This document shows, one piece after another, positions 4,291-48,405 of a stretch of 64,000 nt of DNA; the first letter of the stretch is position 1, and every line of letters begins with the position of its first letter. Below the pieces are notes generated by a model. It did no database searches and had not been told where the DNA came from. It worked only from the letters and a program-made list of their open reading frames with translations. Made by a program: the position numbers and the translations under genes. Source of the stretch: Methanolobus tindarius DSM 2278 (lineage in GTDB: Archaea > Halobacteriota > Methanosarcinia > Methanosarcinales > Methanosarcinaceae); the NCBI RefSeq assembly GCF_000504205.1, contig NZ_AZAJ01000001.1, positions 2,578,879-2,642,878 of the forward strand, given 5' to 3'.

Positions 4291-7200
4291 ATGCGCAGTA
4301 AAAACACGATCCTGACAAGTTTAGTCCTGATACTTCTTATTACATCATTTTCTGCATCTGCAGGAACAAATAATTCTTATCTGACAAACAGTGATACGCT
4401 TTTTTTAAAAGCCGGGCACGTAAACACTACATATACGGATGAGGACAATTATGCTTTTCTTTCACTGAATTCCGTTTCTTCTGAAAATACCTATGCATAT
4501 TACATTGTACAGTTTTCCGGTCCTGTAAGAGATCAATGGAAACAGGACATAATCTCAACAGGTGCAGAGCTTTACACATATGTTCCGAATAATGCATTTG
4601 TTGTCAGGATGAATGCAAGTTCAATGGCTCAGGTTAATGAACTGGCTTTTGTAAAATGGATAGGTGAATACAAGTCTACCTACAAATACGACCCGGAAAT
4701 TGAATCAGATAGTAGCTTAGAACAAGGATTATATTCAGCTGAAACTGAAGAAAACAAGACATATTATATTTCTCTTTTTTCCGCAGATGAATATTTAAAT
4801 GTCCTTGAATCGCTCGAATCTCTTGGAGTTGAGGTTCTTGGTGGCTACGGAAAAACTATCAGGGTTAAGGCATCAGATTCCCAGATTGATTCTATAGTTG
4901 TTATCTCAGGAATAAGCTGGATAGAAGAATATGTCCAGCCTACTTTTGACAATAACATTGCTACAGGAATAATTACTACAGATGTAGTTCATGATACATA
5001 CGGGCTTAATGGAAGTGGACAGGTAGTTGCGGTTGCAGATACAGGAATTGATGTTGGAGTCGATAATGAGTCCATGCATGCAGACCTGCGGGGAAGGATA
5101 CTTGCAATATTTGATATTGCAGAAGATGGAGCTGCTGATGTTGCATCCGGGCACGGGACTCATGTTTCAGGTTCGGTGCTTGGAAACGGGAGTCTTTCAG
5201 GAGGACAGTATGCAGGAATGGCGCCTGAAGCAAAACTTGTAATGCAGGCTTTGGGAAGTACTTCAGATGGATTGTACCTGCCTTCGGGTGGTCTGGAGGA
5301 ATTGTTCCAGATGGCCTATAATGAAAGTGCAAGGATACACACTAATAGCTGGGGTTCTGACACAAAAGGATTATACACAGAGTATTCAGAAGCCGTAGAC
5401 CAGTTCATGTGGGATCATCAGGATATGCTGATACTTTTCTCAGCCGGAAATGAAGGAATTGATTCTGATTCAGATGGAGTAATAGATCCTGATTCAATTG
5501 GTTCACCGGCAACTGCCAAGAACTGTCTTACAGTGGGTGCATCTGAAAATGAAAGAGGAGCTACATTCTCAGTACCCCCTTATACAAAATGGGGGCTTGC
5601 ATGGCCTAATTTTTATCCTGCATCCCCGATATCCGATGATTACATGGCATCGGACAGTGACGGAATTGCTGCTTTCAGCAGTCGTGGCCCAACTGACGAT
5701 GGCAGGATAAAACCGGATGTAGTTGCTCCGGGTACATTTATTGCGTCCACCAGATCAAGTGTTGCCACAGGAACCGGTTGGGGTCTTATTAACAGCAATT
5801 ATCTGTATATGGGTGGGACCAGTATGTCAACACCAATTACAGCAGGTTCAGCAGCCCTTGTCAGGGAATATTACACTGAAGTTGAAAACCTCAGTAGTCC
5901 TAGCGCTTCATTACTGAAAGCTACACTAATAAACGGTGCATGCAACATAACACCGGGACAATACGGGACCGGGGATTATCAGGAGGTCAGTGGAAGACCG
6001 GATTATTCCCAGGGATGGGGACGTGTTGACATTGAGAACTCAATATATCCGCAGTCTCCTGTTGTCATGAGATATTATGATTATATCCCTCTCAATTACA
6101 GTGAATCATGGAATGTGAGTTATGATATACTTCACACTTCTAGACCGGTGAGGGTAACACTTGTATGGACTGATTATCCGGGTGATTCACTTGTTGAGAT
6201 GCAACTGGTTAATAATCTTGATCTTATTGTGGAAGCTCCGGATGGCACATATTATGGAAACGGTGCTCCCGATACTGTGAATAATGTAGAAGGTATTGAA
6301 CTTCTTGAACCGGTTGCAGGTACTTATACAATAATCGTTAACGGAACAAACGTTCCACAGGGTCCGCAGAATTTCTCACTTGTAATTTCTTATGGTGAGC
6401 TTAGTAATATCTACATGTATCCTGAACACAATTCTTATACAACGAATGCAAGCACTGATGTTTACATGAATCTGACACATGTGGACGGAATCAACTCAAG
6501 TTCCATAGAAATGCAGATTGACGGTTCATCTGTATCATATTCACTAGAGGCTATTTCTGCTGGATACAAGGTCCAGAACCAGTCCCAGTCATATTCCGAA
6601 GGATTCCACAATGTGTCCGTTACTGCGCTTACTGATCAGAATGAAGAACTGAATTACGGATGGAGGTTCTATGTCAGTATTGAGGACAATATACTCACTG
6701 TCCAGAGCCCGCTGGAAAATTCAGTGATACAGGATAATACTGTTCAGATAAATGCCAGCAACAATAAGTGGTGTGATTTCTGGTACAGGATTGATAACGG
6801 AACAAATTCCACAAGCCAGTCTGGATATTCACTGAATGCAAGCACAGTACTTTCAGAAAATACCCACAATATCACGGTGTATGCTGAGGATATAACAGGT
6901 TTCGTGAACTTGACAACTGTAAACTTTACTGTGTTTACCGAATCAGCAGAGATTGATTCCCCTGCATCAGGTTCGATTTACTATCTGCCTGATGACAGTT
7001 TTACCCTAAACGGAACAGTTGGAGTTGCAAGTAATGTTTCTGTTTATGTTAACGGTGCCCTGACAAATAATTCAGAGCCTGTTTCTAACGGAATGTTCAA
7101 TGTAAGTAATGTTCCTCTTTTAAACGGGACAAATACAGTAAATGTAAGTGCAATTTACAATAATTCCCAGAATGAGTACTTTGTATCAAATACCACAATA

Positions 7201-35984: not shown

Positions 35985-36305
35985 TGTGCGAAAAACCTTT
36001 ACCCTCATGTTGCCATATAATATCGAAAGCAATATCTTTTTCATCCGTGTTGGATGCAGATTTGCTCCAAATCTCTCTTTTTTCATGAGATTGTCACAAG
36101 TGTTTTCAGTAATTTGAAGTGTTTCTGGTACGGGTTATGGAGACTGTTCTTTATATACAGGCTCATGAATTCTATCCGTTTACCCAAAAGGTTTATTATC
36201 TATTATGCATTATGAGGGGTGCTGATAAGCGCCAAGGCGTGCGATAATAGCACTAAAGTGCTAGAAAGCAGCAAGGTGTTTACAGATATTCGCAAACTGC
36301 ATAAT
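35985..36305 (+). promoter_or_regulatory. tRNA-cluster promoter and hairpin-containing leader
   Basis: This 321-nt stretch has no protein gene. A strong box A, TTTATATA (36150-36157), implies transcription from about 36180. Between it and the first tRNA are compact hairpins CGCC-AA-GGCG (36230-36239) and the perfect TAGCACT-AA-AGTGCTA (36248-36263). The leader of ~125 nt is long for a tRNA operon and could hold a small RNA or a processing signal. Confidence 0.5.
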
Positions 36306-36382
36306 GGGCTCGTGGTCTAGCTGGTTATGACGTCGCCTTGACATGGCGGAGGTCCGGAGTTCGACTCTCCGCGGGCCCACCA
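36306..36382 (+). tRNA. tRNA-Val (GAC)
   Basis: All four arms pair: acceptor GGGCTCG/CGGGCCC, anticodon stem TCGCC/GGCGG with loop TTGACAT (anticodon GAC at 36340-36342), T-stem CGGAG/CTCCG with TTCGACT. Discriminator A at 36379 is followed by an encoded CCA (36380-36382). It is first of three clustered tRNAs. Confidence 0.96.
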
Positions 36383-36445
36383 AGACAGTTTTGCAACAGT
36401 TAAGTTTAAATGTAAAAGCAGCATTTAGGTGCTTCGGGTCATGAT

Positions 36446-36518
36446 GCCCAGGTAGCTCAGTTGGGAGAGCGCTGCCCTGAAGAGGCAGTTGTCCCCGGTT
36501 CAAGTCCGGGTCTGGGCA
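36446..36518 (+). tRNA. tRNA-Phe (GAA)
   Basis: Acceptor GCCCAGG pairs with TCTGGGC (G7-U66 wobble). The D-arm is GCTC/GAGC. Anticodon stem CTGCC/GGCAG encloses CTGAAGA, giving anticodon GAA (36479-36481). T-stem CCCGG/CCGGG has loop TTCAAGT. Discriminator A at 36518; CCT follows, so CCA is not encoded. Confidence 0.95.
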
Positions 36519-36531
36519 CCTAAGCAAAAGC

Positions 36532-36603
36532 ACACCAGTAGTGTAGCGGTTATCACCGGGCGTTGCCAACGCTCGAACCCGGGTTCGAATCCCGGCTGGT
36601 GTA
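36532..36603 (+). tRNA. tRNA-Gly (GCC)
   Basis: Acceptor ACACCAG pairs with CTGGTGT. Anticodon stem GGGCG/CGCTC (one G-U) encloses TTGCCAA, giving anticodon GCC (36565-36567). The variable loop is GAAC, and T-stem CCGGG/CCCGG has loop TTCGAAT. Discriminator A at 36603; CCA is not encoded. It lies 13 nt after tRNA-Phe. The A1-U72 end pair is unusual for tRNA-Gly. Confidence 0.9.
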
Positions 36604-36721
36604 CTGACTTTTTTCTTATTCACTCAGTATCCATTAAAGTATAGTATCGATAAGTTCTTTACTTTCACCTTGATAAAAAGCTGATCACCAGATAAGTCAA
36701 TTTCTGAGGATGTGATATTCA

Positions 36722-36910: not shown

Positions 36911-38281
36911 ATGATAAACGAAAGGTCTGATATGCTTGCCAACGAGAATATAAAAAAGCTCATTTACAGAATGTCAACCCCTGCGATTGTGGGGTTGCTT
37001 GTGCAGGCATTTTACAATCTTGTGGACACAATTTTCGTTGGAAGAGGACTTGGAGCTGACAGTTCCCTTGGAATTGCAGGTATTTCTGTTGCATTCCCGG
37101 TACAGATGCTCATGATGGGTATTTCCATGGGATTAGGTATTGGAGGAGCCTCGATCATATCACGAGCTCTTGGTATGGGCGACCGTAAAAAAGCTGAGAA
37201 GGCTCTCGGGAATATGGTAATACTGGTAATAATTTCCAGTGTGATATTCACTATTTTAGGATTGGTATTCATTGATCCTGTACTGAAAGTATTCGGAGCA
37301 TCGGAGAGCATACTTCCTTTTGCACGGGAGTACACGAAGTACATACTCATGGGGACAATATTCTTTGCATTCTCCGCAGCATTGAGCAATACCATAAGAG
37401 CCGAAGGACACGCAAAGTTTGCAATGTCAATCATGCTGATCTCCAGTATTGTGAATATTATACTTGATCCACTTTTTATCTTTGAGTTCAACATGGGAAT
37501 AATGGGAGCTGCTGTGGCCACGGTAATATCACAGATAGTTGGCTGTGTATTGGTACTTCACTATTATACAAGCAACATCAGCCTGATTCCATTCAGGCTT
37601 GCAGATATGGTGCCTGACCTTGCTCTTTCCTGGGAGACCGTGAGCATAGGCATGTCAGAATTTATTTTCAACTCAGTTGAAAGTCTGGTTTTCATTCTCC
37701 TGAACCAGAGTCTCCTCGTATATGGAGGAGATATGGCCATTGCAGTATTCGGCATCATCATCAAGGTCTTTATGTTAACGCTGATGCCTATAATAGGAAT
37801 AAAGCATGGCATCCAGCCTATTTTTGGTTTCAATTACGGTGCCGGTAATTTAGAGAGGGTACGGGAAACCGTTTCAATCTCTAACTATATTGTTTTTGGA
37901 ATGTGTATACTGAGTGTCATTGTTGTATTCCTAATCCCTGAGCAGATTTTCCGCGTTTTCAGCACTGATGCCGGATTGATAGACGTAGGAGTGCCAGCAA
38001 TAAAAATAAGTTTCCTCATGATGCCATTCATAGGTACTCAGGTTGTGGCAATGGCTCTGCTTCAGTCCCTTGGCAAGTCAAAAGGCTCACTGATGATCAC
38101 TCTCTCAAGACAGATTTTCTTCCTGCCACCACTTGTATTCATCCTTCCATTGTACATGGGCCTGACAGGAATATGGGTATCATTTCCAATATCCGACTTT
38201 CTCGGATTCGTTGTAGCTGTTATTCTTATGAAAAAGGAAGTTAGTAAACTCGTGGTATCAGTACCACAAGGTGAAAGCTGA
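36911..38281 (+). CDS. MATE family multidrug/Na+ efflux transporter
   Basis: The 456-residue protein has twelve helices in two related halves. Features typical of the MATE family (DinF/NorM-like branch) include STPAIVGLLVQAFYNLVDTI, FVGRGLGADSSLGIAGISVA in the first half and GIKHGIQPIFGFNYGAGN in the second. It exports cationic compounds in exchange for Na+ or H+. The frame also allows later starts, MLANENIKK at residue 8 being plausible. Confidence 0.93.
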   Translation: MINERSDMLANENIKKLIYRMSTPAIVGLLVQAFYNLVDTIFVGRGLGADSSLGIAGISVAFPVQMLMMGISMGLGIGGASIISRALGMGDRKKAEKALGNMVILVIISSVIFTILGLVFIDPVLKVFGASESILPFAREYTKYILMGTIFFAFSAALSNTIRAEGHAKFAMSIMLISSIVNIILDPLFIFEFNMGIMGAAVATVISQIVGCVLVLHYYTSNISLIPFRLADMVPDLALSWETVSIGMSEFIFNSVESLVFILLNQSLLVYGGDMAIAVFGIIIKVFMLTLMPIIGIKHGIQPIFGFNYGAGNLERVRETVSISNYIVFGMCILSVIVVFLIPEQIFRVFSTDAGLIDVGVPAIKISFLMMPFIGTQVVAMALLQSLGKSKGSLMITLSRQIFFLPPLVFILPLYMGLTGIWVSFPISDFLGFVVAVILMKKEVSKLVVSVPQGES

Positions 38282-38360
38282 GAGTTTAACGAGTTGCTTT
38301 TTTTGAATATCTCAATAATTCAAAGACATACACTTAAATAATTTCTCTCCTGATCAATAC

Positions 38361-38418
38361 AGGGAGTGAAAATATGGATGTGAATGAAATATTATTTCAG
38401 GACAATTTAGGTGACTTT
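38361..38418 (+). repeat. ~58-bp duplication of the DUF2892 gene start (left copy)
   Basis: This segment matches 39942-39999 over the region before and through the first ~15 codons of the DUF2892 gene, with about eight mismatches and no gaps; the matching core GGGAGTG to GGTGRCTTTG includes the ribosome-binding site. The two copies flank gltS as direct repeats. Confidence 0.75.
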
Positions 38419-38424
38419 TGTTAA
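38374..38424 (+). pseudogene. Truncated DUF2892 gene start acting as 16-codon leader ORF of gltS
   Basis: The ATG at 38374 opens MDVNEILFQDNLGDFC then TAA, against MDMNELLFQENVGGFD in the intact gene at 39955. The stop overlaps the gltS ATG (TAATG), so this remnant probably couples translation into gltS, and its GGTGA (38410-38414) serves as Shine-Dalgarno. It reads as a decayed copy retained as a leader. Confidence 0.6.
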
Positions 38425-39842
38425 TGTCATCAGCTTCAATGGTTGGAATAAGCTTTCTTATACTGGGAGTTATACTTTTACTTGGAAAGTGGATAAGAGT
38501 CATTTCTCCTCCTCTCCAGAAACTTTTCATTCCCAGTTCCCTCATAGGAGGTTTTCTTGCACTATTTCTGGGTTCAGAAGTGCTTGGTAAAATAGCCACA
38601 TTAACAGGTTATTACGGGACATTTCTTTCAGGTGGCTTATTTCCTCAGGAAATGATTGATATATGGTCCTCTTTACCAGGAATTTTTATCAATCTTATAT
38701 TTGCAACACTTTTCCTTGGAAAGAAAATACCTTCTCTAAAGAACATATGGTTGCTTGCAGGACCACAGATTGCTCACGGACAGACCATTGCATGGGGTCA
38801 ATATGTTTTCGGCATACTTGTAACGATTCTTATCCTGACTCCCTTCTTTGGAATAGACCCTACAGCAGGAGCTCTGATTGAGATATCATTTGAAGGTGGT
38901 CACGGTACTGCAGCAGGTATGGCCGCTACCTACGAAGAATTCGGATTCACGGATGCTTCGGATCTGGCACTTGGACTTGCAACAATTGGTATACTTTTTG
39001 GGGTTATACTTGGTATTCTCCTTCTGAACTATGGAATTCGGACAAATAAAACAGCGGTTCTGAATAAGTCTTCAGACATATTTCTTAATGAGAATTACCA
39101 GACAGGAATAATCGATTTTGACTCAAGGGAATCAGCCGGAAAAATAACAACAAGACCCGAATCCATAGAACCGCTGTCTCTTCACTTTGGATATGTAGGG
39201 ATTGCTGTAGGAATTGGCTATATTATTCTGCATCTGTTGATAATTGCAGAAGATCTACTCTGGGGTCAGTCAACGGGCATTTACCTGTTTTCCCATATCC
39301 CGCTTTTTCCAATGGCTATGATCGGTGGCATTATTCTACAGTTCCTTCTTGAACGTTTTGATAGGTATCATACACTTGACAGGAATCTCATGATGCGAAT
39401 ACAGGGGCTGTCACTTGACATTCTGATTACCAGTGCAATAGCCACACTTTCCCTTGCAGTTATAGGAAGCAATCTGGTACCATTTCTTATCCTTGCTACC
39501 GTGGGAATTGTATGGAATCTGGTAGCTTTCCTGTTTCTCGGTCCTAAAATGATTCCTTCCTACTGGTTTGAAAGAGGTATTGGTAACTTCGGACAATCAA
39601 TGGGAATGACTGCAAGTGGTCTTTTGCTCATGAGAATTGCAGATCCTGCAAACACATCTCCTGCAATGGAAGGTTTCGGATACAAACAACTTTTATTCGA
39701 GCCAATTGTAGGCGGCGGCATCTTCACTGCTGCTTCTGTTCCCCTAATATTCTACTTCGGTCCTCTTCCAATGCTTGCACTGGCGATTATTGTTATGATT
39801 TTCTGGAGTTCAATCGGGATTTTTTATTTTGGCAGAAAATGA
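38424..39842 (+). CDS. GltS-family Na+/glutamate symporter
   Basis: The start was set at 38424 (MSSASMVGISF), where TAATG joins it to the upstream leader ORF; a TTG two codons earlier is less likely. The 472-residue membrane protein belongs to the ESS (GltS) family: two re-entrant-loop repeats with GPQIAHGQTIAWGQ, FEGGHGTAAGM in the first half and ERGIGNFGQSMGMTASGLLLMRI in the second. It probably imports glutamate or a related acid with Na+. It is flanked by direct repeats of the DUF2892 gene start. Confidence 0.88.
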   Translation: MSSASMVGISFLILGVILLLGKWIRVISPPLQKLFIPSSLIGGFLALFLGSEVLGKIATLTGYYGTFLSGGLFPQEMIDIWSSLPGIFINLIFATLFLGKKIPSLKNIWLLAGPQIAHGQTIAWGQYVFGILVTILILTPFFGIDPTAGALIEISFEGGHGTAAGMAATYEEFGFTDASDLALGLATIGILFGVILGILLLNYGIRTNKTAVLNKSSDIFLNENYQTGIIDFDSRESAGKITTRPESIEPLSLHFGYVGIAVGIGYIILHLLIIAEDLLWGQSTGIYLFSHIPLFPMAMIGGIILQFLLERFDRYHTLDRNLMMRIQGLSLDILITSAIATLSLAVIGSNLVPFLILATVGIVWNLVAFLFLGPKMIPSYWFERGIGNFGQSMGMTASGLLLMRIADPANTSPAMEGFGYKQLLFEPIVGGGIFTAASVPLIFYFGPLPMLALAIIVMIFWSSIGIFYFGRK

Positions 39843-39954
39843 AAATGTTCTCGCTATTTTCTTTTCGGGGTCAAAGTTTTATCTTATCTTTGACAAACTT
39901 AAGATAAACAGGACAGAACCAACGTTTCTTTTCTGTTTAAATGGGAGTGTAAAT
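39842..39954 (+). promoter_or_regulatory. Leader with possible H-type pseudoknot before the DUF2892 gene
   Basis: GTCAAAG (39870-39876) pairs with CTTTGAC (39888-39894). The loop of that hairpin, TTTATCTTA (39878-39886), pairs with TAAGATAAA (39900-39908). The two stems interleave with connecting loops of one, one and five nucleotides, the layout of a compact H-type pseudoknot. It ends 46 nt before the ATG at 39955. It may regulate the DUF2892 gene or end the gltS transcript. Confidence 0.4.
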
Positions 39955-39999
39955 ATGGATATGAATGAACTATTATTTCAGGAAAATGTAGGTGGCTTT
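39942..39999 (+). repeat. ~58-bp duplication of the DUF2892 gene start (right copy)
   Basis: This is the intact counterpart of 38361-38418. Similarity stops just before codon 16 of the gene and does not extend upstream of the TGGGAGTG, so the repeat unit is the ribosome-binding site plus the first codons. Confidence 0.7.
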
Positions 40000-40209: not shown

Positions 40210-40638
40210 ATGCAAGATAATATCGGTTACTGGCTTATAGTTGCATCCAGGGATCATGTATTTGCAGGAATTCAGGAAGGCTTCACTCAGGCTTCTCACG
40301 GCAGGAGAAACCCTCTGGAAAAGATGAATGTTGGTGACTGGATAGCATACTATTCTCCAAAAAGGATATATGGCGATACCAAACCATATCAGAAATTTGT
40401 GGCAATTGCAAAGGTTACCGGGGAGAAAGTATTTCAGGTGAAGCTTTCTGATACTTTTAAACCATACAGGCGTGAGGTTCAATACTTGCATGAAGTTCAT
40501 GAAATCGACATCAAACCATTGTTACCTCAACTGGATTTTATCAAAAATAAATCCCGCTGGGGTCTTTTTCTCAGAAATGGTTTTCGCTCTGTTTCCAGAG
40601 ATGACTTCTTGCTTATCTGTTCTGAAATGCGTGGCTGA
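40210..40638 (+). CDS. EVE-domain protein
   Basis: The 142-residue protein is almost entirely one EVE domain: YWLIVASRDHVFAGIQEG, EKMNVGDWIAYYSPKRIYG, FVAIAKVTGEKVFQ, PYRREVQYL and the C-terminal KSRWGLFLRNGFRSVSRDDFLLI. EVE domains share the PUA-like fold and are thought to bind modified bases in DNA or RNA. The gene starts 30 nt after the DUF2892 gene and may share its transcript. Confidence 0.92.
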   Translation: MQDNIGYWLIVASRDHVFAGIQEGFTQASHGRRNPLEKMNVGDWIAYYSPKRIYGDTKPYQKFVAIAKVTGEKVFQVKLSDTFKPYRREVQYLHEVHEIDIKPLLPQLDFIKNKSRWGLFLRNGFRSVSRDDFLLICSEMRG

Positions 40639-43902: not shown

Positions 43903-44259
43903 TTACATTTTTCCCATCATCCACCTCTTAAGCGTGGGAATTAATCTCATATTCATTTCTTTTGCATCTTTTTCAGACATCTTTTCCATTTCAGTCATCA
44001 TGTGTGTGCATTTGTTGATCATGTCATCCATGCACATATCAGGCTCAGTGAAATCTCCTTTCTGATAACAATGGGTACAATAGGTATTATTCATAGAACC
44101 ATCTTCATTGGTTCCAAAGTCCATATGTTCTTTCATTGGCATTCCGCAGCTCTGGCACAAATTCATGTTTTCCATGTCCATCATATCCATATTTTCCATA
44201 TCTTCCATGTCCATGGATTTCATATCCATTGAGTTCATTTTTGTTGAATTCATATCCAC
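43903..44259 (-). CDS. Met-rich zinc-ribbon protein
   Basis: The 118-residue protein has an N-terminal ~34-residue segment of near-periodic MD, MDM and MEN units with over a dozen Met, followed by a zinc ribbon of the putative zinc-ribbon_2 type: CQSCGMPMKEHMDFG and YCTHCYQKGDFTEP (CxxC...CxxC), then a helical tail with HMMTEMEKMSEKDAKEM. The ribbon family is of unknown function. The Met-rich extension recalls copper- or silver-binding Met motifs, but it has no His and no signal peptide. Confidence 0.85.
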   Translation of the reverse strand: MDMNSTKMNSMDMKSMDMEDMENMDMMDMENMNLCQSCGMPMKEHMDFGTNEDGSMNNTYCTHCYQKGDFTEPDMCMDDMINKCTHMMTEMEKMSEKDAKEMNMRLIPTLKRWMMGKM

Positions 44260-44539: not shown

Positions 44540-44902
44540 TCAGACACCAGTTGAATTTCCATCATTTGGAACATATACAATGGTACCATCCGGCAACCTG
44601 TAAGCAGAACCAAGGTATTCTCCGGTTCCAGTTCCTTTGTTCTCGCTCATATCAAGCACCTGGACTGGTTCACCTGCTTCTTTAATTATCATTTCCATGT
44701 TCTTTTCCCCTGGATTTTTAACAATGGTTATGTTTTCTGTAGGACTCAAAAGTTCCGGAAGCTGATAGGACATCACAAGCGCCACCAGAAGTGCAACAGA
44801 AAATACCATTGCAATGTCAAAAAGATTTGCAACACCTGTGAGAGGATTTTGTTCCTCATCCTCATAGATCTGCTTTCTGCGATCATTTCTGCTGCGTCTC
44901 AC
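44540..44902 (-). CDS. DUF2149 membrane protein, partner of ExbB/MotA-like channel
   Basis: The 120-residue protein has a basic N terminus, one membrane helix (FDIAMVFSVALLVALVMSY) and an external domain, the layout of ExbD/TolR/MotB proteins. In methanogens DUF2149 is found with MotA/TolQ/ExbB-like proteins, often near cobaltochelatase genes. Its ATG overlaps the upstream gene stop by 4 nt (ATGA). It may couple ion flow to surface transport. Confidence 0.85.
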   Translation of the reverse strand: MRRSRNDRRKQIYEDEEQNPLTGVANLFDIAMVFSVALLVALVMSYQLPELLSPTENITIVKNPGEKNMEMIIKEAGEPVQVLDMSENKGTGTGEYLGSAYRLPDGTIVYVPNDGNSTGV

Positions 44903-45522
44903 TCTTTAGCCTCCAGGGTGTCAAGAATGTAATCAATATCTGCCATATCCTGCCAATACCATCTTTTCCTGATCTGTGTGAGCACATATCCGATACTGCC
45001 TGCAAAAAGTCCGATAACAGTTGTTGCGAATGCTATCATCAGGTTGTTGGCCAGTTCCTCGATGTTTCCCTGTGAAAGGCCTATAAGTGCCGGTCCAAGC
45101 GGAATCAGGGTTCCCATGAGTCCTACCATTGGTGATATCGTTGCAACAATTCTGGTCTGTTCCAGTCTTTTTGCCATCTTTATTTCGTATTCCTGGACTA
45201 TCCACTCAAGTGACAGGAGATTTCCTTTTTCTATATGATAAGCAGCACTTAATGCAAAGCTTTTCACAAGGAAATTTTGTTTGATGAGTCTGAGAGAACT
45301 TGCAGCTTTTTCGTAATCTTTACTAAGCATATGTTTACGAGTACTGCTGCAGCAGAGTTCAAGTTTTTCTGTATCGCGTTTTCGTTTCAGCAATTCTGAA
45401 ACAAACTCTCCAATGAGTATCAGTGAATAAACAGCAAGCAGTATCAGTGTTATTATCACCGGGTACAAAAGTGTTGAAGAGAATATGTAGAGTATATCGA
45501 AGATGTAGGAAGTGATGTCCAT
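44899..45522 (-). CDS. MotA/TolQ/ExbB-type proton channel protein
   Basis: The 207-residue protein has an N-terminal helix, a cytoplasmic helical stretch (KRLEQTRIVATISPMVGLMG) and two further helices with PMVGLMGTLIPLGPALIGL and MIAFATTVIGLFAGSIGYVL, the conserved core of the MotA/TolQ/ExbB family. It is paired with DUF2149. No cobN-type chelatase or corrinoid transporter is adjacent, so the energised partner is unknown. Confidence 0.92.
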   Translation of the reverse strand: MDITSYIFDILYIFSSTLLYPVIITLILLAVYSLILIGEFVSELLKRKRDTEKLELCCSSTRKHMLSKDYEKAASSLRLIKQNFLVKSFALSAAYHIEKGNLLSLEWIVQEYEIKMAKRLEQTRIVATISPMVGLMGTLIPLGPALIGLSQGNIEELANNLMIAFATTVIGLFAGSIGYVLTQIRKRWYWQDMADIDYILDTLEAKE

Positions 45523-45728
45523 TTTGATGCCTTCTTTAAATCCTGTTTTAGAGCCTAGCGTTATCAGACTATATAAATACCCAATTACTTAAGTTTCTCT
45601 GTCTGTATAAAAAATGATTAATATTTACTAAAAAGGGTATGCAATTTGATTATACAGTTTTCGAATAACAGGATCCTTAAAAAATATGAAATCCAGTGAG
45701 TAAAAATTATATAAATATGAAAAAGGGA

Positions 45729-45749
45729 GTACCTGCAAAAAGCAGGTAC
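45729..45749 (-). terminator. Hairpin terminator of the S-layer gene
   Basis: GTACCTGC (45729-45736) and GCAGGTAC (45742-45749) form a perfect 8-bp stem with an A5 loop, 35 nt past the stop codon at 45784. On the minus strand it is followed by TCCCTTTTTC. Confidence 0.8.
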
Positions 45750-45783
45750 AAATTTAACCTGACTTCAAGTTTAAGTTCTTTGC

Positions 45784-48405
45784 TTATTTGTTTTCTTTCC
45801 TGCGTATTAGCATTGCAACAGCAATGAATGCCATTACAGATACAAGAATTCCAGGTCCTGGAATGGAACTCTTTTCAACATCAAAACTTGCTGTAGAACT
45901 GCCAACCTGAACTTCATAGGTTCCAGCTTCCTCTTCAGAGACTATGAATGTCAAAGAAGTTGATTCTCCTGCATCAAGTGAGACACTCTGTGAATCTACA
46001 GTTGTTCCATTGATCATAAGCTCAACATTCTTGTCACCTGTTGCTGTTCCTGTGTTTGTTACATCCACAGTTACAGTGACATCTTCACCTGTCTTCACAA
46101 GTATCGGGCTTACCTGAAGATTTGAGTATGTGAACTTTGCTTCCAGGGCAAGAACCTCAAGATTCAGTTCTGCATCAAGATAACTGGAGGCTGAAGTTTC
46201 AAGTTTGTGCATTCCTGCTTCCTTCACTGTGTAGCTAAGAGTACCGTCTGCACCAGTGCTTCCAATGAGATTGTTATCATAGTAGAGCTGTACATCCTCA
46301 ATGGCGTCACCGCCAATTGCAGTCATAACTGTTATTGTGATGCTGTCTTCTTCTACAACACTCTCAGGTGAAACTTCAATGATTAGCTTCCTTGTAGCGT
46401 CATCCGAAGAGATTACCTCAACTTTTTCACTGGCGGAAACATATCCGTCCTTTTCAGCAGTAACTGTAAAGGTACCTGCAGTTCCAGGAGTGTAAGAAAT
46501 TGTTCCGTCAGTTCCTGTGGTTCCAGCTTCATCGTCACCAAACATTACGGTAGCACCACTTACTGCAGCACCTCTGGATGTAACTTCTATCTCTATTTCT
46601 TCATCTTCTTCTATCACAGATTCGATTTCAATGGAAAGAGATTCTGTTGGTTCAGTGGAAACTTCCACGAAAGGATAGTAGCGTACATCACCTGAATCTG
46701 CTACGTTGAATGCGATATCTCCCATGATATCGATGATGTTTCCTCTTGAGAGTGTAATCGAATCTTCGTTCTTCAGGACAATCTCATCTGATGAGAAACT
46801 TGTAACTTCCATCTCACCGAATTTCTCGTTATCTTCTACTTCTACAAGGTCTTCTGATATCTGGAAGATACCTTCAATAAATACCGCATTTGTTTCGGTA
46901 CCCTGGAATATCTCATCAAAGTGAATAACAATGATTGGTACATCATCTACAGAACCAATGTCTTTCTCATAGACGTAATCATCATCAGAAGATACGATTC
47001 CGGTGTCAACTTCATCTCCGTCCTGCAGGAGATTTATCATTACACTATCACCATTGGTATCAACTTCCACAACAGCAAGCTCATATCCTTCTTCCAGTAT
47101 CAATGAAGAACCGGAATAAAGTGAGGTCTGACTGTCATCGTCAATGAGTACTTTTGAGAGCTTACCATCGGAAAGCAGGCTTACATCATCGGTAAACTCA
47201 TTGTCAGGATATCCGGCAAAATATTTCTCTGCCATGAAACCGACAACCTGGAAGTCTCCCCAGTCGTCATGCTCAAAACTTACGTCAAGTGGTACACTCC
47301 TGTAAACAAGGTCACCATCATCTATTGTCCTTCCACCAAGGTCTTTGATCTCAAGGGATTCGGTTCCAACGCCTTCATCAATGTTGTAGTAGAAACCTTC
47401 AAAGTTCAGTGGAGTCCAGGTAAGTTCTTCATCCTCTGCCACTGTACCCCTGAGTTCGTAGGTTCCCGGGTCGGACATATCAAGTACAGGTCCAAATCTC
47501 AGGGTATTGTCGTCTGCAACAATGAATTTCAGTTTACCCATTATGGTGACTGTGTCCCCTCTTCCTAGTGAAATACCATCAGAGTTCTCCATCGTTATCT
47601 CGTCAGAACTTAAGGTCTGGACTTCCATCTTTCCAAAAGAATCTCCTGATTCGATTTCCACATAGTCTTCAGATATCTGGAAAACTCCCTCAACAAACAC
47701 TGCGTTTGTTTCGGTACCCTGGAAAATGTTGTTAAAGTGTACTGCAATTATTGGAACTTCATCATCAGTGCCAATTTCCTTCTCATATACATAATCGTCA
47801 TCTGCAGATACAATACTTGTATCAATTTCGTCTCCGTCCTGTGAGAGTGTTACCATGACACTGTCACCATTAAGATCGACTTCAACAACTTCAAGCTCAT
47901 ATCCTTCTTCAAGTATGAGTGAGGATCCTGAATAAAGTGAAACTTCATCATCATCGTCAAGCAGTACCTTTGCCAGAATTCCGTCTGATATAAGGCTGAC
48001 ACTGTCATCTGCAAATTCAGTGTCATCGGTGTAGCCTGCAAAGTATCTCTCTGCCATAAATCCGATAACCTGGTATGAACCCCAGTCATCCTGTTCAAAT
48101 TCAGTGTCAATAGGGGTTGTTGCATATTCAAGGTCACCATCTCCAATGCTTCTGTCACTATCGCTGTCAAGTGTGATGGTGAGTGTTTCTGACCCGACAC
48201 CTGAGTCAAGGTCATAGTAGAATCCTGAATAAGTTAGTGCTGTCCATGTATATTCAAGGGAGAGATTTTCATCTGCATCCCATATTCTGTTTCCTGTGCT
48301 GTTATTTGCTGCCACTGCAGTGCTTGTTAATAAAACCACTGCAACCAGCAATAACATAGGCTTAAAAGCCAAGCTCTTTACTGATTTATTTTCCATTTTC
48401 ATCAT
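45784..48405 (-). CDS. S-layer protein with tandem S-layer domains, Ig-like and CARDB domains
   Basis: The 873-residue protein has a signal peptide ending STAVAANNS. Two homologous ~275-residue S-layer domains follow (~37-315 and ~316-590), each with FxxDDWGxxQVxGFMAExYFAGY, SLYSGSSLILEEGYEL and HFxxIFQGTETNAVF; this tandem arrangement is that of the Methanosarcinales S-layer protein. Beyond it, two Ig-like domains (~600-775) and a CARDB-like domain (~785-850) extend the chain. The end is PGPG plus a membrane helix and RRKENK, an archaeosortase-type signal. It is probably the main envelope lattice protein or a close paralogue. GGGGGA precedes the ATG. Confidence 0.93.
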   Translation of the reverse strand: MMKMENKSVKSLAFKPMLLLVAVVLLTSTAVAANNSTGNRIWDADENLSLEYTWTALTYSGFYYDLDSGVGSETLTITLDSDSDRSIGDGDLEYATTPIDTEFEQDDWGSYQVIGFMAERYFAGYTDDTEFADDSVSLISDGILAKVLLDDDDEVSLYSGSSLILEEGYELEVVEVDLNGDSVMVTLSQDGDEIDTSIVSADDDYVYEKEIGTDDEVPIIAVHFNNIFQGTETNAVFVEGVFQISEDYVEIESGDSFGKMEVQTLSSDEITMENSDGISLGRGDTVTIMGKLKFIVADDNTLRFGPVLDMSDPGTYELRGTVAEDEELTWTPLNFEGFYYNIDEGVGTESLEIKDLGGRTIDDGDLVYRSVPLDVSFEHDDWGDFQVVGFMAEKYFAGYPDNEFTDDVSLLSDGKLSKVLIDDDSQTSLYSGSSLILEEGYELAVVEVDTNGDSVMINLLQDGDEVDTGIVSSDDDYVYEKDIGSVDDVPIIVIHFDEIFQGTETNAVFIEGIFQISEDLVEVEDNEKFGEMEVTSFSSDEIVLKNEDSITLSRGNIIDIMGDIAFNVADSGDVRYYPFVEVSTEPTESLSIEIESVIEEDEEIEIEVTSRGAAVSGATVMFGDDEAGTTGTDGTISYTPGTAGTFTVTAEKDGYVSASEKVEVISSDDATRKLIIEVSPESVVEEDSITITVMTAIGGDAIEDVQLYYDNNLIGSTGADGTLSYTVKEAGMHKLETSASSYLDAELNLEVLALEAKFTYSNLQVSPILVKTGEDVTVTVDVTNTGTATGDKNVELMINGTTVDSQSVSLDAGESTSLTFIVSEEEAGTYEVQVGSSTASFDVEKSSIPGPGILVSVMAFIAVAMLIRRKENK

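Follow-up and report, generated by a model that had tools for sequence, protein, structure and literature searches.

The locus lies in a window of 64,000 nt (the whole stretch of DNA analyzed) from Methanolobus tindarius DSM 2278, which is genome G000 in our Methanolobus comparison; M. bombayensis (G010) is part of the same comparison. Here, a gene of the sodium/glutamate symporter family (gltS) is flanked by two similar sequences in the same orientation, the right of which forms the start of an intact DUF2892 gene. The following features were annotated (window coordinates):

36306-36604, + strand: cluster of tRNA-Val, tRNA-Phe, and tRNA-Gly, left edge of a variable region (ARAGORN, Rfam)
36911-38281, + strand: MATE family efflux transporter gene (Pfam PF01554, TIGR00797, synteny)
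38282-38361, + strand: upstream region of the resident DUF2892 gene (upstream comparison, alignment)
38334-38339, + strand: TTAAAT, a possible TATA box picked by eye
38362-38418, + strand: left repeat copy, ribosome-binding site (RBS) and first ~14-15 codons of a truncated DUF2892 gene
38374-38424, + strand: 16-codon leader ORF, MDVNEILFQDNLGDFC followed by a stop (sequence)
38409-38414, + strand: AGGTGA, probable gltS Shine-Dalgarno (SD) sequence inside DUF2892-derived codons (sequence; function inferred)
38410-38431, + strand: possible hairpin (GGUGAC/GUCAUC) covering the SD and holding most of the gltS start codon in its loop (weak, post hoc)
38424-39842, + strand: gltS, encoding a 472-aa sodium/glutamate symporter family protein (PF03616, relatives)
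39843-39942, + strand: upstream region of the right DUF2892 gene (z-scores, blastn)
39943-39999, + strand: right repeat copy, spanning the RBS of the intact DUF2892 gene and its first 15 codons
39955-40179, + strand: intact DUF2892 / YgaP-like_TM gene, 74 aa (PF11127, E 1.1e-12)
40210-40638, + strand: EVE-domain gene (PF01878, synteny)

The gltS product matched PF03616 with E 1e-12 and 48 bits (curated cut-off 26), which places it in this family; NCBIfam models gave no match to it, and the assignment is therefore kept at the family level given by PF03616, with no substrate named. The right gene likewise belongs to PF11127 (YgaP-like_TM, formerly DUF2892), with 48.3 bits against a curated cut-off of 25.3. 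Synteny with relatives lacking gltS showed the MATE gene adjoining DUF2892, and the downstream flank on the EVE side was also found in G010, G005, and G041 (synteny, blastn). Two further ORFs of the window were noted. One is antisense to the tRNA cluster (36261-36623), where conserved tRNA genes give a spurious impression of protein conservation in relatives; the other (43903-44259) has a repetitive Met/Asp-rich N terminus followed by a cysteine-containing part (VDMNSTKMNSMDMKSMDMEDMENMDMMDMENMNLCQSCGMPM...).

The repeat before gltS had originally been described as ~58 bp with about eight mismatches. The repeat itself was confirmed, with measured values of 57 alignable nt and 6 mismatches (89% identical) between 38362-38418 and 39943-39999. 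The left copy indeed runs into a stop overlapping the gltS start, the leader TAA (38422-38424) and the gltS ATG at 38424 together reading TAATG. A DNA search of the 3.15-Mb single-contig genome returned only the two repeat copies (left one, E 2.2e-15), and no third copy of the leader or repeat was found across the whole genome. Since both copies carry a GGGAGTG-type RBS, chance or functional likeness of two RBS regions might be invoked as an explanation. This reading can practically be discarded: the repeat pair shares 51/57 identities, whereas the window (both strands) offers the right copy no better ungapped runner-up than 31/57, and the repeat is homologous to the DUF2892 starts of many relatives. 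Among 112 genomes of the family, leader-like sequence was found, besides the two stubs (in G000 and M. bombayensis), at DUF2892 starts only.

Gene content differs from species to species in the interval running from LonB and the three-tRNA cluster to the genes at 44540-48405. Relatives with DUF2892 but without gltS at this place, for which the original prediction had proposed to look, do exist: MATE-DUF2892 without gltS occurs in G001, G017, G015, and G004, and DUF2892-EVE with neither MATE nor gltS in G041 and G005. Conversely, G007, G019, G012, G009, G002, G013, G003, G020, and G023 carry gltS and show no MATE in the stretch examined (layouts of G019 and G020 being judged on short contigs). 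Only G000 and M. bombayensis have the order MATE, stub, gltS, DUF2892; they are the only carriers of both MATE and gltS among the loci compared, and the only ones of the 112 family genomes in which the left region runs on into gltS. None of the Methanolobus genomes searched had more than one DUF2892 match. In G002, a complete DUF2892 gene stands immediately before a gltS that keeps its native promoter (see below), and its upstream region resembles that of the left copy (83% over 69 nt).

In L124 (G016:C6), positions 5983-6255 near LonB hold a gltS 3′ remnant of ~92 codons, suggesting loss of gltS there. The MATE gene of L094 (G004) carries an internal TGA, and that at G018:C130:3445-4814 is in pieces with stops. 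In L122 (G007:C2:2634000-2653900), ~20 kb of other DNA separates the LonB/tRNA side from gltS; relatives of G007 have MATE or little at this site.

The 80 nt preceding the left copy are similar to the DUF2892 upstream regions of G001 (z 8.8) and G017 (z 6.9), and the region upstream of the M. bombayensis stub gave z 9.9 and 12.6 with the same two genomes. Against the upstream region of its own right copy, the left one reached z 1.2 only (z 1.2-2.7 for stub versus right-copy upstreams overall); the right-copy upstream region is strongly similar only to those of G010 and G007 (z 15.6-21.3; the right-copy upstream region of G000 gave 21.3 with G010 and 15.7 with G007). Blastn gave the same picture, the left copy with its flank aligning over 116 nt at 79% to G001 and over 115 nt at 76% to G017, but over 57 nt only to its own right copy. 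Because the left upstream region resembles those of G001 and G017 and not that of the right copy, the left copy is, on this comparison, a truncated DUF2892 start still in its old place behind MATE, and the right DUF2892 gene has an upstream region of different history. The repeats had been proposed to be a footprint of insertion or local duplication. A rearrangement scar is upheld by the left flank, which matches and runs on into the empty site of G001/G017; the notion of target-site duplications from the insertion of a single gene is not. Insertion of a mobile element with target-site duplication was also considered and rejected, since the right copy is an entire gene whose upstream region is unrelated.

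The gltS gene, for its part, has lost its native promoter in both stub genomes, as comparison of upstream regions shows. A GCAAAA..TATATA element is located 78-101 nt before gltS in 9 of the 11 Methanolobus gltS genes (8 with the strict pattern, that of G023 with a relaxed one; the strict pattern has a chance expectation of ~0.01 per 150 nt), and the two genes without it are exactly those with the stub. The element also precedes gltS in two Methanococcoides loci and one Methanomethylovorans locus, while it was absent before gltS in the Methanosalsum and Methanosarcina loci examined. Both features looked for in promoter capture by a truncated upstream gene, i.e. loss of the native promoter and presence of a donor upstream region, are found together here.

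At the new junction, AGGTG from DUF2892 codons 12-14 meets GTTAATG of gltS, the latter being common to G007, where it accompanies that genome's own gltS start. The stub-derived AGGTG(A) matches the standard anti-SD and precedes the gltS ATG by 9-11 nt, and the start codons of leader and gltS are 50 nt apart in both stub species. In both, AGGTG can also pair with gltS codons 2-4. In this hairpin, the two species differ by one compensatory pair (A-U to U-A) plus a half change; z-scores of the local fold are -1.66 for G000 and -3.19 for M. bombayensis. Structure over the whole leader was not stable (z -0.36 and -0.60); the short hairpin alone stands out, and no such hairpin was seen before gltS in G007, G019, G002, or G003. 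Noticed post hoc in two sequences, a hairpin over SD and gltS start hints at translational coupling. The stronger proposal, that this pairing is a coupling switch derived from a broken gene, compensated in both species and opened by leader-translating ribosomes, appears rather unlikely.

We consider it likely that the start of DUF2892 was joined to gltS, replacing its native promoter, and that the old DUF2892 promoter and the SD within the stub now express gltS, with coupling helping. In the starting state, a resident DUF2892 gene would have lain downstream of MATE. A rearrangement would then have linked its promoter, RBS, and ~14 codons to gltS, at most ~10 nt from the gltS ATG, and this joining would have cost gltS its native promoter and 5′UTR, while a complete DUF2892 gene whose upstream region differs remained beyond gltS. 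By one simple route, incoming gltS-DUF2892 DNA would have used homology to pair at its DUF2892 end, and the left end would have been joined illegitimately. The left junction is illegitimate by inspection; the DUF2892 gene trees have too little support to locate the right crossover or the source of the right copy. In the resulting arrangement, gltS would be transcribed from the old DUF2892 promoter, the transcript opening with the 16-codon stub ORF and continuing into gltS. Translation of gltS would start from the stub-borne SD (AGGTG), and the TAATG overlap would permit coupled translation of leader ORF and gltS. The stub probably provides the expression signals of gltS, and the locus is a real recombination scar with probable promoter takeover.

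The original prediction went further and regarded the remnant as recruited for a leader peptide. Recruitment of the sequence before gltS agrees with the data; recruitment of the peptide does not. A conserved attenuator-type regulatory peptide sensing an amino acid would fit an ORF that is open, of the same length, and overlapping the gltS ATG in both species (the M. bombayensis counterpart being MDMNRLLFLENVGVFG followed by a stop), yet such a peptide is very improbable here. The two leaders differ at 9 codons, 8 of them nonsynonymously, which gives no sign of amino acid constraint at the sequence level; the carriers are just two species; and the ORF contains no run of a single amino acid. No leader ORF was found before any of the other gltS genes examined, outside G000 and M. 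bombayensis. Neither a conserved peptide nor sensing codons were thus detected, and with the peptide not conserved, a peptide-sensing leader is not supported. Nucleotide identity of the leader between the two species is 42/53, versus 65.5% at fourfold sites of gltS; leader DNA somewhat more alike than neutral sites is expected if it carries expression signals. In G007, a possible leader remnant was rejected: similarity upstream of gltS lay within that of shuffled sequences (122 and 54 of 500 shuffles scored equally well or better), and no remnant is therefore claimed there. Loss of the leader similarity in close relatives had been named as evidence against a rearrangement. The close relative G007 does lack the leader, yet it keeps the native promoter, which makes it a clue to the history and does not refute the rearrangement.

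Different histories could have produced the same locus. In the LonB/TldD tree, G010 groups with G007 (100), and G007 has the native gltS promoter, no MATE, and no leader; this grouping, with G007 unfused, points to a later replacement in G007, where the ~20 kb of other DNA lies before gltS, or to transfer of the fused region between the lineages of G000 and G010. The gltS sites leave G000, G010, and G007 unsplit (24/27/27 shared sites). Placing the event by DUF2892 or gltS trees was tried and given up, as these trees did not resolve it. A two-step history, in which an arrangement MATE-DUF2892(A)-gltS-DUF2892(B) was followed by a deletion of ~270 nt in the redundant copy A (from codon ~14 to just before gltS) that fused its promoter to gltS, is conceivable, although we lean against it. 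It competes for the recombination route only, end state and working being identical. The layout of G002, with a DUF2892 of left-like upstream region directly before a native-promoter gltS, speaks for it, since one deletion there would yield the left structure; it requires an extra step, however, and no genome of the genus holds two DUF2892 matches. Alternatively, stub-gltS might be ancestral, with relatives of the G001 type having lost gltS by recombination between the repeats and so restored MATE-DUF2892. Such a deletion would put the left promoter on the full DUF2892 gene, as in G001. Nevertheless, this history is improbable: MATE-promoter-DUF2892 is also present in the distant G017, and in G015 and G004 with less similar upstream regions, and the presence of the native gltS promoter in G007, in G019, and in other genera identifies the stub as the derived state.

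Takeover of the DUF2892 promoter by gltS, our preferred reading, would make this a clean natural archaeal case of a transporter gene swapping its expression signals by rearrangement, with empty-site and native-promoter relatives at hand. It also illustrates that short overlapping upstream ORFs need not owe their origin to selection on the encoded peptide, and cautions against calling such ORFs sensory leader peptides. In kind, the stub-gltS locus is ordinary, a tidy fossil of DNA rearrangement and no new kind of system. Homology-facilitated illegitimate recombination is a known mechanism in bacteria (PMC3240628), and in the T6SS clusters of Vibrio cholerae such recombination has been proposed to leave remnants in the form of orphan immunity genes (PMC5361080). 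The Methanolobus locus shares with these remnants one-sided homology, an illegitimate join on the other side, and a remnant of the resident gene beside the newcomer. Unlike them, its remnant is a gene start that seemingly serves as the newcomer's promoter and 5′UTR, its host is an archaeon, and the event is deduced from comparison alone. Compared with the deletion-born fusions treated in PMC12803068, the stub frame stops at the gltS start (TAATG) and gives no fusion protein; as in promoter capture and in those fusions, a truncated gene lends its promoter and start region to a neighbor.
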